Source: Chitinophagaceae bacterium
GTDB taxonomy: Bacteria; Bacteroidota; Bacteroidia; Chitinophagales; Chitinophagaceae
Length of the DNA stretch: 14,918 bases
Assembly (NCBI GenBank): GCA_026785745.1
Contig: JAJAZO010000041.1
Span: forward strand, 1 to 14,918
Direction of reading: 5' to 3'
How positions within the stretch are numbered: the stretch's first letter is position 1; the number at the start of each line of letters is the position of its first letter. The notes under the pieces are model-generated. The model was not told the DNA's origin and searched no databases. It was given only the letters and a program-made list of their open reading frames with translations. Below, in pieces: positions 1-14,835 of the stretch. The translations under genes were made by a program, and so were the position numbers.

Positions 1-1268
1 GGCTTACCCCGGCAAAAAAATATTCTTTTACCGCTAACTTAGAGGGAAGCCGTAACCAAAGTATTGTTTCCGGCAACCTGTTTGGTATTGGTCTTAACGT
101 TGGTTTACAAAACCGGAATTTTGCTAGAGCCGCTAATGTTGCGAATACCAATATCCGGTATGGTATTGAAATAAGTAGTGATAGCAATTTTGTACAAACC
201 CAGCAATTTTCAATAAGTCATAATATCTATTTCCCGAAACTTGTTCCCCGGATGAAATGGATTCCTGAAAGGTTTAAAGAAAATGTGAGGACAAGTTTGT
301 CTTTTAATGCTGGTAACACAGAGCGAAAAGACCTGTTTAATCTTATTACACTCAATGGTTCATGGGGATATGAACTTCAGGCAAAGAATACATTGTTTTC
401 ATTGCGGTTACCAAATATCGAGTTTTCTTCTCTCACCCCCCTTAAAAACCTGGACACCCTTTTTAAGTATAATCCATCACTAAAAAATATTTTTACGGAT
501 GGACTTATCGTTTCCACTATTCTCGGTGTTACAATTAATAATAATAAGGACAACATACAAAAAGTTTTCAGGGCTAATGCAGAGTTATCAGGTTTTCCTG
601 CTTCACTTATCAGCAACAATAAATTTTTGGATGACAATCTTTATCGTTTCATCAAGGTAGATGCTGAAGTAATCAGAAAAATGAGTTTTGCAAAATCGGC
701 ATTGGTGCTGCGCCTTTTTACAGGTGTTGGTTATGAATTTAACGCTACTGCAAATCCTTTAAAGAGAAACAATCTTCCGTTCTTCAAACAATATTTTGCG
801 GGTGGCCCTAATAGCATGCGGGCCTGGGGTTTAAGAAAATTAGGACTGGGTTCCAGTCAAAGAGCATTTTCAGGTACAGGCAGCACACCGGAACGATATG
901 GTGATGTGCAACTGGAAGGCAACATCGAATATCGTTTTCCCCTTTTTAAACCCTTCGGTATAAATATAGATGGTGCCTTATTCACCGATATTGGCAATAT
1001 CTGGTTTTTGAAAGAAAAGGCCGACACAGCAGGCTCTAAAGAAGTTTTCAATTTGGGCAGATTAGGAGAAGACCTGGCCGTTGGAATAGGTATGGGCTTC
1101 CGGATTGACTTTAGCTTCTTTGTTGTTCGCCTCGATTACTCTTATAAAGCAAAAGACCCAAGTCCTAATCCCAATACTAATGCATCTAAACAAAACAAAT
1201 GGTTTAGTTATAGTCTTTTCAAAGGCGACCAGTTTCAGTTAGGTATCAGCTATCCTTTTATTTTATAG
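1..1268 (+). CDS. Omp85/BamA-TamA family outer membrane barrel protein, C-terminal part (TamL-like)
   Basis: The reading frame is open from the window edge (first full codon at base 3) to the TAG at 1266-1268, so the gene lacks its 5' end here and about 422 codons are visible. An internal ATG at 252 is not the true start, because the frame is open and barrel-like before it. Alternating hydrophobic/polar stretches suggest beta strands. The segment coded near 798-845 reads GGPNSMRAWGLRKLG, matching the conserved loop-6 region of Omp85 proteins (the RGF/RAW motif that enters the barrel). It is followed by GDVQLEGNIEYRFPLF and DIGNIWF, both typical of D15/BamA barrels. The last residues, QLGISYPFIL, resemble a final barrel strand. 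In this phylum such proteins are often TamL, the lipoprotein partner of TamB in outer membrane assembly. The N-terminal POTRA and lipobox parts are outside the window, so TamL versus another Omp85 member cannot be settled. Confidence 0.85.
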   Translation, partial: LTPAKKYSFTANLEGSRNQSIVSGNLFGIGLNVGLQNRNFARAANVANTNIRYGIEISSDSNFVQTQQFSISHNIYFPKLVPRMKWIPERFKENVRTSLSFNAGNTERKDLFNLITLNGSWGYELQAKNTLFSLRLPNIEFSSLTPLKNLDTLFKYNPSLKNIFTDGLIVSTILGVTINNNKDNIQKVFRANAELSGFPASLISNNKFLDDNLYRFIKVDAEVIRKMSFAKSALVLRLFTGVGYEFNATANPLKRNNLPFFKQYFAGGPNSMRAWGLRKLGLGSSQRAFSGTGSTPERYGDVQLEGNIEYRFPLFKPFGINIDGALFTDIGNIWFLKEKADTAGSKEVFNLGRLGEDLAVGIGMGFRIDFSFFVVRLDYSYKAKDPSPNPNTNASKQNKWFSYSLFKGDQFQLGISYPFIL

Positions 1269-2136: not shown

Positions 2137-3462
2137 TTAGATTGACATTCTCGTTTTTAATTCCAGGTATTTGTTAATGGTGTTTACCGTCAGATTCTCC
2201 GGCGTTGTAAGTATAGAAGGGATGCCATTTTTATGCAATTCTTTTACCATCAGTCTTTTTTCATACGCAAATTTTTCTGCTATGGTTTTTATGTAAATAT
2301 CTTCCAGCGAATCAGCTTTCCTTTCCAGCAGCGATTTTAATTCGGTATTCTCAAAAAAAACAATCAACAGTAAATGATACTTGGCAATTTTCCGGAGGGC
2401 TGTCATTTCCCGTTGCAGGCTTTCTAACGATTCAAAATTGGTGAACAGCACCAGCAGACTTCGGTTAGTGACCTTGTTGCGGATAACAGAAAATAATTTT
2501 TCAAAATCAGATTCTAAGAAATCTGTTTTTTGCCGGTACAAACTTTCCAATATCAGGTTCATCTGTGTGGGCTTCTTATCTGCCTGCAAATAAGTATCAA
2601 GATTTTTTTCAAAAGTGATGATGCCGGCTTTATCCTGTCTTGTCAGTGCCACATTGGATAACACTAATGATGCATTGATAGCATAGTCAAGCAATGTCAT
2701 TCCATTAAAAGGCATTTTCATTACCCGTCCTTTATTAATAAGGCAATAAATCTGCTGGCTTCTTTCATCGGTGTAATTATTCACCATCAATCCTTCTTTT
2801 CTTGCCGTGGCTTTCCAGTTGATGGTACGGAAATCATCACCCCGTACATATTCTTTGATTTGCTCAAACTCCATGCTATGCCCGATCTTCCGGATTTTTT
2901 TTACTCCGGCTTCCTGTAACCGGTTACTTACTGCCAGCAACTGGTAGCGCCGCATTTGCATATAAGACGGATACACTTTTACAACCTGTCTCACCGAAAA
3001 AATATATCTCCGCTTTACCAATTGCAATGGCCCAAGTGCAAATACATTTATATCATTAAATACATACTCTCCTCTTGAGGCCGGCTTTAAGGAATACTCC
3101 AACTGGTACGGCTCCTCTCTTGCAACAGTTGCTTTTCTTATCCATTTTTTTTCCTGGAATTGTATTGGTAATTCATCAATAATACTTGTACGGACAGGAA
3201 AGGCATAATGATTAGTAAGGCTGATGATAACTTTATTTGGGTCTCCGATACTAAATCGTTCAGAAACTATTCTCTCGGCTTCAATACCTTTCTTTTTACT
3301 ATAGACAAAAATAGCATCTAACACAATGGCGATAGCAAGGAGTAATAAAATCAACCCGCCCATACGAAATAAGGATGGTTGAAAATAACTAATAACAAAA
3401 ACCACCGCCGCAGATCCGGCGATGTAATAAACAACGTTATTTAGATAGAAACTTTTAATCAC
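2137..3462 (-). CDS. DUF58 domain membrane protein
   Basis: The 441-residue protein has two N-terminal membrane segments (about 10-27 and 34-54), a beta-rich middle region (about 60-165), and the DUF58 signature at 199-230, including VRGDDFRTINWKATARKEGL. A von Willebrand A-like alpha/beta fold is expected over the C-terminal half. DUF58 proteins are usual genetic partners of MoxR ATPases and are thought to act with them at the membrane; the biochemical role is not established. The start is a GTG (3462-3460) overlapping the TGA of the upstream four-helix-bundle gene (GTGA). No ribosome binding site is evident, and the first 20 residues read well as an amphipathic start plus membrane helix. 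In other genomes DUF58 normally follows moxR directly; here they are separated by the four-helix-bundle unit, so expression may depend on read-through or translational coupling. Confidence 0.9.
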   Translation of the reverse strand: MIKSFYLNNVVYYIAGSAAVVFVISYFQPSLFRMGGLILLLLAIAIVLDAIFVYSKKKGIEAERIVSERFSIGDPNKVIISLTNHYAFPVRTSIIDELPIQFQEKKWIRKATVAREEPYQLEYSLKPASRGEYVFNDINVFALGPLQLVKRRYIFSVRQVVKVYPSYMQMRRYQLLAVSNRLQEAGVKKIRKIGHSMEFEQIKEYVRGDDFRTINWKATARKEGLMVNNYTDERSQQIYCLINKGRVMKMPFNGMTLLDYAINASLVLSNVALTRQDKAGIITFEKNLDTYLQADKKPTQMNLILESLYRQKTDFLESDFEKLFSVIRNKVTNRSLLVLFTNFESLESLQREMTALRKIAKYHLLLIVFFENTELKSLLERKADSLEDIYIKTIAEKFAYEKRLMVKELHKNGIPSILTTPENLTVNTINKYLELKTRMSI

Positions 3463-3851
3463 AAGTTCATAGTTGATGGTTGATAGTTCATAGCAGCAAG
3501 CTGCATTGAACTTCGAAGTTTCGTAATCATTTTACAAAGGATCTCATACCCGTCATAATGTTTTTGATATATCTCATTAGCAACATACTTTCTTTTGTGA
3601 GCTAAATAAAGGCATGCAACGACTTCGACTGCCGACCTCAAAACAATTCCCAAAAATCGTTTGAATTCAGGAGTTGATTGCCCGGTACTACCTTCTGCAA
3701 TATTTAATACTACAGAATCTGCTGCCCTCTTATTCTGAGATGCTAAGCTAAATCTCTCTTCAATTGGGAATGTCTTAGCCAGCAAATCTATCTCATTAGA
3801 TAAATCCGCTGCAATATGCCATACTTTCAATTCTTCAAATCTGAATGCCAT
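3459..3851 (-). CDS. Four-helix-bundle protein (TIGR02436 / S23 family)
   Basis: The 130-residue protein begins MAFRFEELKVWHIAADLSNE and contains LNIAEGSTGQSTPEFKRFL (49-67). These match the four-helix-bundle family first described from 23S rRNA intervening sequences and structurally related to the Avd accessory protein of diversity-generating retroelements. Four amphipathic helices can be placed at about 5-27, 35-55, 60-85 and 93-118. The biochemical role of stand-alone members is unknown. The C-terminal tail AAMNYQPSTMNL is encoded by the flanking inverted repeat, so the repeat has supplied the end of the gene. There is no reverse transcriptase or template repeat nearby, so a retroelement function is not supported. 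It lies between moxR and DUF58, overlaps the DUF58 start by 4 bp, and has an imperfect inverted repeat on each side. Confidence 0.88.
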   Translation of the reverse strand: MAFRFEELKVWHIAADLSNEIDLLAKTFPIEERFSLASQNKRAADSVVLNIAEGSTGQSTPEFKRFLGIVLRSAVEVVACLYLAHKRKYVANEIYQKHYDGYEILCKMITKLRSSMQLAAMNYQPSTMNL

Positions 3852-11062: not shown

Positions 11063-11590
11063 TTACTGGTTGCTTAAAGGACTTAGATTCGTTACAGAAA
11101 ACAACAAGTCATTTTTGCCAATCAGTATTGTCAACTCCTTTTATAAATAGATTTAATTTTCCCCTGCTATTTCTAACCTGGCGTGAAGATAATTATAGAG
11201 AACTTCATCTTGTAAAGATTTCGTTTTATACAGATTTTCCATGTGGTCGGTAGTTTCATCATTAGAGCCGAGTGCATACACCAAAAATTTAATAAACTCC
11301 GCTTTATACCTTTTCCTTCCATAACCTTCCACAATATTGCTTTTTACTGATTTGGACGACCGTCCTAATTTGTGAGCCTTCTTCATACATTTCAAACTTA
11401 GGCAGTTTAGAAAGGGTCATGTCGTGAATTTCAACAACCAGCTCATCTGCCAACTTCCATATGTCCAGATTTTTATAGCTTATCATCTCACCACTTAAGG
11501 CTTGCAGATTAATAAATGATTCTATCAACATCAACAACCAAGACCAGAGACCACCATTCCAACGACTCCTGGTCTCTGAGAAACCAGTAA
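11063..11590. repeat. Imperfect inverted repeats bracketing the second four-helix-bundle gene
   Basis: TTACTGGTTGCT at 11063-11074 is matched in inverse orientation by AGAAACCAGTAA at 11579-11590 (11 of 12). Around each arm the sequence stays rich in the words ggttactggttgctt or their complement (11043-11075, 11581-11612). A separate hairpin, CAGAGACCA (11545-11553) with TGGTCTCTG (11570-11578), lies next to the right arm. The layout parallels that around the intact four-helix-bundle gene at 3459-3851, although the repeat words differ. Confidence 0.4.
11153..11486 (-). pseudogene. Four-helix-bundle protein, frameshifted (second copy)
   Basis: Two overlapping frames add up to one protein of the TIGR02436 family. 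The first runs from the ATG at 11486 ([20 protein letters not shown]) to [10 protein letters not shown]. The second continues with [20 protein letters not shown] through to LHARLEIAGEN and the TAA at 11153-11155. The join is at minus-strand AGGACGG (11366-11360): dropping one A (about 11363) gives QIR-RSSKS, the usual family sequence. So there is a single-base insertion, a sequencing error, or less likely a programmed shift. The restored protein is about 111 residues, and its C-terminus seems around 10 residues short of typical members. Outside the shift the sequence is well conserved, so the event looks recent. It differs clearly from the copy at 3459-3851, so the two are not a recent duplication. 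Confidence 0.8.
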
Positions 11591-14486: not shown

Positions 14487-14524
14487 TAAAAAAGCCCAAA
14501 TCTCTGATTAACAAGACTTAGGCT
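14487..14524 (-). terminator. Intrinsic terminator after the tRNA-like fragment
   Basis: AGCCCAAATCT (14493-14503) and AGACTTAGGCT (14514-14524) form an 11-bp stem, nine matches plus two G-T pairs, with a 10-base loop. On the minus strand it runs into a T tract (complement of 14488-14493). Its position directly 3' of the tRNA-like acceptor end suggests it was once the terminator of a tRNA gene. Confidence 0.75.
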
Positions 14525-14525
14525 T

Positions 14526-14581
14526 AGTACGGGAGAGCAGACTTGAACTGCCGTCTGCGGCGGCGGATATGAACCCGTTGC
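14526..14581 (-). pseudogene. tRNA-like 3' fragment with a palindromic insert
   Basis: On the minus strand an anticodon-like loop TTCATAT (14573-14567) carries CAT at the anticodon position. Further on, GCAG-TTCAAGT-CTGC (14551-14537) has the exact T-loop pattern TTCRANY on a 4-bp stem, then CTCCCGTA as a possible 3' acceptor strand. The matching 5' acceptor strand (about ACGGGAG) and D arm are absent; the GIY-YIG remnant occupies that place. The variable-loop region is replaced by GCCGCCGCAGACGGC (14564-14550), a near-perfect palindrome (6-bp arms with one G-T pair), which also spoils the 3' side of the anticodon stem. It cannot be a working tRNA. It may be a remnant or an integration-site duplicate. 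Confidence 0.5.
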
Positions 14582-14698
14582 TCAATGCGGAAATGTTTTA
14601 ATAAAATCTCTACCAGCTCCGGTCTTTAACCATTTTTCATGGGCTAAAGCATCCTGTTTCGTTTCAAATTCTTTTGTATAAATTAATTCCCACGGTCT
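14582..14698 (-). pseudogene. GIY-YIG endonuclease remnant, C-terminal part
   Basis: This short frame encodes 38 residues beginning RPWELIYTKEFETKQDALAH and ending EKWLKTGAGRDFIKTFPH, then TGA (14584-14582). It matches the C-terminal half of small stand-alone GIY-YIG nucleases: PW-x-L-x-Y, then EF-x-T-x-x-x-A, E-K-x-L-K, G-R-x-FI. The codon before RPW is a TAA stop (14701-14699), and further upstream only disconnected fragments are found, with stops in all frames. No GIY or YIG motif remains, so the catalytic N-terminal half is lost or too degraded to see. The stop codon abuts the tRNA-like fragment on the same strand. Too short to be found by a normal gene search. Confidence 0.72.
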
Positions 14699-14835
14699 TT
14701 ATTTTCCACCGAACTGATGGATGATAACTTTCTACTGCCTGTTTCTTGGAAAGTTACTGAGTAGCCGCAGGAGTTAGTTTATTGCAGGATGTTTGTTTAC
14801 CATATCAGTTAAATAAATATTATATAGAATTTTCT

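Follow-up and report, generated by a model that had tools for sequence, protein, structure and literature searches.

Mobile ORFs (mORFs) have been described in fungal mitochondria, in atp6 of Allomyces macrogynus and in atp6, atp9, cox2 and nad3 of Glomus (PMC3630166). In the available excerpts of that account, the mORF insert brings an endonuclease ORF and a new end for the gene, the native end of which comes to lie farther downstream, and one case, in atp9, involves a GIY-YIG nuclease (PMC3630166). The available portion of a second account describes SegB, a free-standing phage GIY-YIG homing endonuclease that adjoins tRNA genes, cuts tRNA-containing DNA and causes a 718-bp tRNA-segB unit to be amplified in tandem through recombination (PMC13096335). 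Prokaryotic Slx1-like stand-alone GIY-YIG proteins have been described as predicted repair proteins, with one fusion to a TrmH-like tRNA methylase and, in the excerpts available, no mention of linkage to tRNA genes (PMC1564403). Within the literature surveyed, judged mostly from titles and the opening lines of abstracts and excluding subscription papers and preprints, we found no recognition in bacterial chromosomes of the arrangement described here, in which small GIY-YIG genes lie between an intact tRNA gene and a broken copy of it.

The window examined is the whole of one contig (C41; 14,918 nucleotides) of a fragmented Chitinophagaceae genome that is 73% complete. On its minus strand, positions 14585..14698 are what is left of a small Slx1/UPF0213-like GIY-YIG nuclease gene, identified by translation, tblastn to L088 and blastn to L307; read from 14698 to 14585 they translate as RPWELIYTKEFETKQDALAHEKWLKTGAGRDFIKTFPH, the C-terminal half, and the N-terminal half is missing. 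The TGA stop (14582..14584, minus strand) abuts the dead 3' part of an elongator-type tRNA-Met (14527..14581, minus strand), which comprises the anticodon-stem 5' strand, a CAT loop, the T arm and the acceptor 3' strand. Over 27 nt, positions 14553-14527 (CGGCAGTTCAAGTCTGCTCTCCCGTAC) agree at every base with the elongator-type tRNA-Met that this genome carries on C422 (L013), and because of this identity the loop with CAT, the T arm and the acceptor strand are assigned to tRNA-Met. The chance expectation of such a match is about 8e-11, assuming equal base use, and a fortuitous resemblance is excluded. The anticodon-stem 3' strand is replaced at 14554..14567 (minus strand) by TCCGCCGCCGCAGA (14567-14554), which is read as a decayed form of a palindrome found in relatives and has TCCGCCGCGGCGGA as its counterpart in L307. 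An intrinsic terminator follows at 14488..14525 (minus strand, 14525-14488) and is probably the native tRNA-Met terminator, displaced along with the 3' part; the tRNA end and terminator together align at 79% to the tRNA-Met locus of G027 (L309).

Less worn copies clarify what this remnant once was. One of them, L088 of G009, matches the window at 60.5% over 38 aa (tblastn, E 8e-14) and 74.9% over 179 bp, and it has the same tail after an intact 80-aa ORF, with an intact tRNA-Met 30 bp upstream of the ORF. L307 (77% over 182 bp, blastn) also has this tail, with a perfect palindrome, in repeated units on a contig of G063. An earlier note on this DNA had described a degraded minus-strand GIY-YIG nuclease followed by a CAT loop, a T arm, an acceptor-like strand and a terminator, and each of these features was recovered: the remnant matches the C-terminal half of the intact L088 nuclease, the parent tRNA that it proposed to seek through the T arm and end is present in the same genome, and the tail that it expected behind intact GIY-YIG genes is present at L088. 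Its view that the nuclease had replaced the 5' half of a tRNA has to be revised, as the piece is the displaced 3' part of the host tRNA and a complete tRNA stands across the ORF in the less worn copies. The tRNA-finder and covariance searches that it advised gave nothing for the tRNA-like piece: ARAGORN called no tRNA between the remnant and the contig end at 14918 or elsewhere in the window, and Rfam returned nothing at gathering score, matches with E of 5-8 being dismissed as noise. An ancestral tRNA site beside the outer-membrane gene that neighbours the remnant was also considered and rejected, since no tRNA was found around this gene in 29 relatives (stretches of up to 1.5 kb on each side); therefore the remnant has moved or the locus has been rearranged. 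What the window retains is an old remnant that has lost the N-terminal half of its ORF and has no tRNA left beside it, that side having been lost or rearranged. Elsewhere on the minus strand of the window, 3459-3851 and 11153-11537 encode two small proteins that we take to resemble the four-helix-bundle/S23 family, the latter split over two frames.

To place this remnant in context, we scored 100 GIY-YIG loci among the matches listed for 58 genomes, the own genome (L001-L003) and 57 relatives (L029-L125). This set omits matches with open frames above 200 aa (except L037 and L042), G008:C22 (111 aa) and G031:C5:405-617, which is a second unit in L053; the own partial matches L004 and L005 were not counted, and the handles L040/L160 and L088/L126 each denote one locus. 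Linkage to a tRNA was scored by local alignment to 126 tRNAs. Among these listed matches, 54 of the 61 ORFs of 94 aa or less were tRNA-linked and seven were not, compared with 10 of the 37 ORFs of 95-170 aa (27 unlinked) and neither of two longer ones. The threshold was reached by only 3 of 192 pseudo-ORFs drawn from the same loci, a count obtained with a smaller tRNA library and again when the control was repeated with all 126 tRNAs. The statement in the earlier note that small GIY-YIG genes often sit against tRNA-derived sequence thus holds for the short ORFs. Its suggestion that such an element targets or captures tRNA genes, and that the copy in the window is an old trace of it, gains support from this linkage and from the parent tRNA, which contradict the two outcomes that it had named as refuting, a lack of similarity to any tRNA of the genome and unrelated sequence behind intact GIY-YIG genes.

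An intact tRNA on the same strand lay within 130 bp of the ORF in 50 of the 100 loci among the matches listed, upstream in 34 and downstream in 17, with L032 counted in both (its downstream tRNA is an ARAGORN call despite a broken D arm); within the same distance and the same matches, no locus had an intact antisense tRNA. The 64 linked loci carry 16 labels representing 15 amino-acid isotypes, fMet being kept separate from other CAT tRNAs. In class A loci, where the intact tRNA stands upstream, the match of the sequence after the stop codon to that tRNA exceeded every one of 100 shuffles in 28 of the 32 cases open to testing (misses at L103, L114, L121 and L123; L110 and L117 too short). Where the tRNA follows the ORF (18 rows, 17 testable, L068 being too short), the tRNA-like sequence preceding the ORF beat all 60 shuffles in 17 of 17, with small margins in L059, L070 and L107; this sequence was a 5' part in 15, an intact tRNA in L032 and a 3' part in L077. 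The dead 3' part was closer to the tRNA of its own genome than to the mean of the others in 40 of 40 Met rows, and its own tRNA was top or tied in 33 of these 40, in which two loci are counted twice. tRNA genes are known integration sites, and the nuclease might for that reason simply hitch-hike on integrase islands at such hot spots; this we regard as highly improbable, given that the tRNA and the dead copy leave room for one ORF only, that the spacing does not exceed 55 bp in 32 of the 34 class A cases, that antisense tRNAs are absent beside the listed ORFs and that the elements are isotype-faithful, as described below.

Insertion was examined by comparing occupied and empty sites. At the tRNA-fMet/era region, 30 loci, read in 30 of 42 genomes of the genus with an era match, comprised 22 empty, 2 occupied (G000 and G008) and one remnant (G063), and 5 were not scorable because of an inverted tRNA (L238), no tRNA (L239, L241, L245) or a contig edge (L240). 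In two of the empty loci, L237 (G001) and L244 (G031), tRNA-fMet and era are separated by other insertions, of about 700 bp. The occupied layout reads intact tRNA, another terminator, GIY-YIG ORF, dead tRNA 3' part and native flank. After the dead copy, the flank of both occupied loci matches the same 11 of 20 compared empty loci over about 80-105 nt (97/106 to L234 and 92/102 to L229 for L225; 87/104 to L234 for L246), and the match to 9 more distant empty loci is poor. The element terminator between tRNA and ORF (32-33 nt) differs from the native terminator of the same era locus; its best match, 28/30, is to the native terminator of a distant congener, G006 (L254), although that of L246 also matches the close L234 at 27/30 and 32-33 nt are too short to settle the origin. 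Occupied and empty alleles thus occur at one site in related genomes, as expected of a homing endonuclease, and the insert restores the tRNA with its own end while displacing the native end, as in mORFs.

The mirror form, class B, reads dead 5' part, ORF and intact tRNA. At tRNA-Leu(CAA), the sequence ahead of the dead 5' part corresponds to the native 5' flank, as judged against the empty own locus L022 (94/105, 82/97 and 70/80), and the end of the ORF precedes the intact tRNA (33/38 to 36/43, short local matches). The corresponding test of native flanks at the Phe locus L085 gave the weak matches 26/32 (T2) and 15/18 (T1). A AGTTCTTT-like motif, which presumably resembles a boxA signal, occurs just before the ORF start in L030, L059, L063, L070 and other class B loci. 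Transcription of the ORF in class B may start at the tRNA promoter. At another tRNA locus, that of the tRNA-Asn element of L057, an RNase P RNA gene lies about 1.1 kb away (1-276, minus strand).

The nuclease itself belongs to an abundant group: one search for small GIY-YIG proteins returned 1400 homologues, and the names given to such proteins go no further than putative endonuclease or GIY-YIG family protein. The own-genome locus L001 matches PF01541 at E 1.2e-17 (65.6 bits against a cut-off of 22.6), and the nuclease profile A1 matches 1ywl, 1zg2 and SLX1, so that UPF0213 proteins and SLX1 are the nearest solved relatives by sequence; the window remnant is assigned to GIY-YIG through its matches to relatives. 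On profile evidence, the nuclease is a GIY-YIG protein (PF01541) of the Slx1/UPF0213 branch, and the linked short ORFs consist of the bare domain of ~80 aa. Its only NCBIfam match, a group I intron endonuclease, is below threshold (18.7 against 56.05). A group I intron reading was rejected, as Rfam at gathering scores found no group I ribozyme in the window or in 10 loci, which yielded only tRNAs and the RNase P RNA of L057.

A tree of 122 proteins was built from 97 of the 100 loci and a random 25 of 79 loci from a scan of named genomes (93 columns, modest support), with labels set by hand for L033, L035, L044, L105, L148, L185 and L187, and L036 mislabelled as Leu. On this tree, 29 of the 36 unlinked proteins and two linked ones share one side of the midpoint root, and the other 7 unlinked proteins are placed among linked ones. 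With 'none' added to the 16 isotype labels, the resulting 17 labels require 36 changes, compared with 79.8 when shuffled, and none of 200 shuffles was as low. The nuclease tree, within its modest support, follows tRNA isotype and identifies the element as isotype-faithful; the clustering is incomplete, as Glu and Lys do not cluster and Arg does so weakly. L168, in a Cloacimonadota record, has a Met-type nuclease beside tRNA-Asn and is a possible isotype switch. Across 12 nuclease pairs, dN was 0.17-0.49 and dS was 0.97-3.1 in four and saturated in eight. The low dN would suit a domesticated host gene, vertically kept and with a role related to tRNA genes, as would the upstream gene shared by G021, G022 and G025 at tRNA-Leu(CAA). 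We nevertheless consider a non-mobile host gene unlikely, since the elements are patchy, with 2 of 30 era loci occupied and 119 of 296 genomes of the phylum matching the Met-type profile (E<=1e-12), and since native flanks are displaced and remnants and arrays are found.

The Met-type profile behind the count of 119 genomes also takes in types of other isotypes. The scan of named genomes for the Met type gave 79 loci (the best 80 of more matches), mostly in Bacteroidota, with others in Balneolaceae/Gracilimonas, Cloacimonadota, KSB1 and Kryptoniota records; 74 of the 79 were tRNA-linked by score, three more (L148, L185, L187) by reading the sequence, and L131 and L159 lie at contig starts. In 20 regions chosen from the phylum scan, five of them picked for arrays, 16 had an intact ARAGORN tRNA adjoining the ORF and four (L257, L269, L274, L275) a tRNA piece recognized by eye. 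A pattern scan of viral contigs found one distant relative of the nuclease, at 37% identity; with this single distant match, and with the loci read lying on contigs of bacterial genomes, a phage origin was rejected. On contig C429 of the own genome (L004/L017), a tRNA-Gly, a tRNA-Leu-like copy with a palindrome in its anticodon arm, an intact tRNA-Leu(UAA) and a partial GIY-YIG gene follow one another and constitute another element.

Tandem arrays contain 5 units in L256, 8 in L257, 5 in L258, 5 in L259 and 3 in L260, with a period of about 315-450 bp. Such arrays could mean that the nuclease amplifies tRNA sequence against tRNA-cutting defences or toxins, with the dead copies as decoys, and the accessible part of the SegB account provides a parallel in a tRNA-associated nuclease that amplifies tRNA-Tyr in phage T6 (PMC13096335). 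What is amplified here, however, is dead tRNA with broken arms, and ARAGORN found one intact tRNA in each of L256, L258, L259 and L260 and none in L257; a role in dosage or as a decoy therefore seems quite improbable.

Many dead copies carry a palindrome, for which we examined 88 Met-type loci (79 named loci, 8 relatives and the window; L040 and L160 are one locus). A perfect inverted repeat was present in 58; in 56 of these it belonged to the TCCG type and lay immediately 3' of the anticodon position, and in two (L142, L170) it was different; 30, including the decayed window copy, had none. The TCCG-type palindromes span records named as several phyla, and in three loci both arms have changed together (TCCGTC/GACGGA in L173 and L201; TCCGTTAG/CTAACGGA in L194). 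In the examples read of other isotypes, other palindromes occupy the D, anticodon or T arms. In L039, L074, L104, L111, L124 and L182 the palindrome lies in the T loop of the dead copy, where TTC/GAA and the T stem lengthen it into a longer hairpin; palindromes seem to grow at hairpin centres. The same sequences also occur scattered in genomes, TCCGCC..GGCGGA 51 times in G000 and 5-15 times in five others, and CCTGCCTGCCGGCAGGCAGG 0-9 times. No tRNA piece was found at 19 of 20 such sites, which rules against dispersed palindromes as general relics of tRNAs. The exception is L217 (G028:C30:138470-139330), a tRNA-Leu(CAA) with two CCTGCCTGCCGGCAGGCAGG palindromes nearby that is possibly a solo relic. 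Palindromes are therefore frequent in dead copies without being unique to them, and as they are also found away from tRNAs, they may be generic repeats.

These palindromes bear on a puzzle raised by the elements, namely how a nuclease residing at a tRNA locus spares the intact tRNA. At era, the dead copy is interrupted, but the two occupied loci and 16 of the 22 empty ones have the same intact tRNA-fMet, without a difference in 73 nt. Protection by a recoded tRNA is thus not seen at this site, and the altered recognition site by which a classical homing element is guarded seems to be missing from the intact tRNA. A structure-selective, Slx1-like nuclease could instead have as its substrate the dead copy's palindrome, or a tRNA gene extruded as cloverleaf DNA, rather than a sequence in the intact tRNA, and breaks in dead copies would then drive recombination with other tRNA copies, producing arrays and transfer into tRNA genes. 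We put this forward tentatively. The position of the TCCG-type palindrome in 56 of 88 loci from several phyla, the paired changes, the palindrome at every unit boundary of the arrays L256 and L258, the nearest solved relatives, the bare domain of the ORFs and the lack of recoding at era all fit such an action, which would also solve the sparing of the intact tRNA. Against it stand the occurrence of the same palindromes away from tRNAs, their variation between isotype types, the 30 of 88 loci with no perfect palindrome and the fact that insertion of whole palindromes would equally produce paired changes. That the elements are phylum-wide parasites of tRNA genes whose nuclease works by DNA shape, at the hairpin of the insert edge or at tRNA cloverleaf DNA, is likewise a possibility we hold with considerable doubt. 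If true, one protein fold could colonise 15 labelled isotypes without a recoded recognition site, restore the tRNA from either end and build arrays.

The explanation that we consider probable is that these are homing elements of the bacterial chromosome, each with a free-standing, Slx1-like GIY-YIG nuclease, which give a tRNA gene a new end in place of one of its own and displace the native one; the window holds a decayed member. The comparisons of loci described above demonstrate, at the level of sequence, insertion, polarity, a restored tRNA, a displaced native end, isotype fidelity, low dN and tandem arrays. The minimal mobile element would be a unit of about 315-450 bp, as measured in the arrays, with a single gene for a free-standing GIY-YIG nuclease of about 80-100 aa. 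A class A block would bring a replacement tRNA 3' end and its own terminator, and a class B block a replacement whole tRNA or 5' end; because the inserted block carries the replacement, the tRNA stays intact. The host's own tRNA end and the native flank come to lie beyond the ORF, where the displaced end forms the dead copy that often holds a palindrome. We infer that the nuclease cuts the target locus and that homologous recombination, using the tRNA sequence to either side, copies the block in; arrays would arise from the same breaks or when tRNA copies recombine unequally. Such homing through tRNA homology accounts for the arrays, for the displacement of the native end and for a dead 3' part that tracks the local tRNA; it does not explain the sparing of an intact tRNA that equals most empty alleles at era.

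The nearest precedents for these tRNA elements appear to be the fungal mitochondrial mORFs and phage SegB. As far as the available excerpts go, mORFs share the class A layout, but reside in protein genes of fungal mitochondria rather than in bacterial tRNA genes, and those excerpts mention no tRNA hosts, palindrome in a dead copy, class B mirror or arrays (PMC3630166). As the host is not a mitochondrial protein gene, the element is considered to work like a mORF and is not classed as one. SegB, in the portion of its account available, is alike in being a GIY-YIG nuclease adjacent to tRNA genes and in forming tandem units of tRNA and nuclease, which here contain dead tRNA copies; it differs in belonging to phage genomes with no isotype preference reported, whereas the tRNA elements are chromosomal, isotype-faithful and made of the bare domain, and that portion mentions no split or displaced tRNA copy (PMC13096335). 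Slx1-like/UPF0213 proteins (PDB 1ywl, 1zg2) are of the same sequence family as the nuclease of the tRNA elements. Group I intron homing endonucleases in tRNA genes likewise place a nuclease gene inside a tRNA gene, but the tRNA elements restore the tRNA by duplication and not by splicing. The comparison ties most short GIY-YIG proteins of the sampled genomes to one mobile-looking design that dwells in tRNA genes in two mirror forms, accounts for the partial tRNA copies adjoining small GIY-YIG genes, and provides a bacterial tRNA-gene counterpart to the fungal mORFs and phage SegB.
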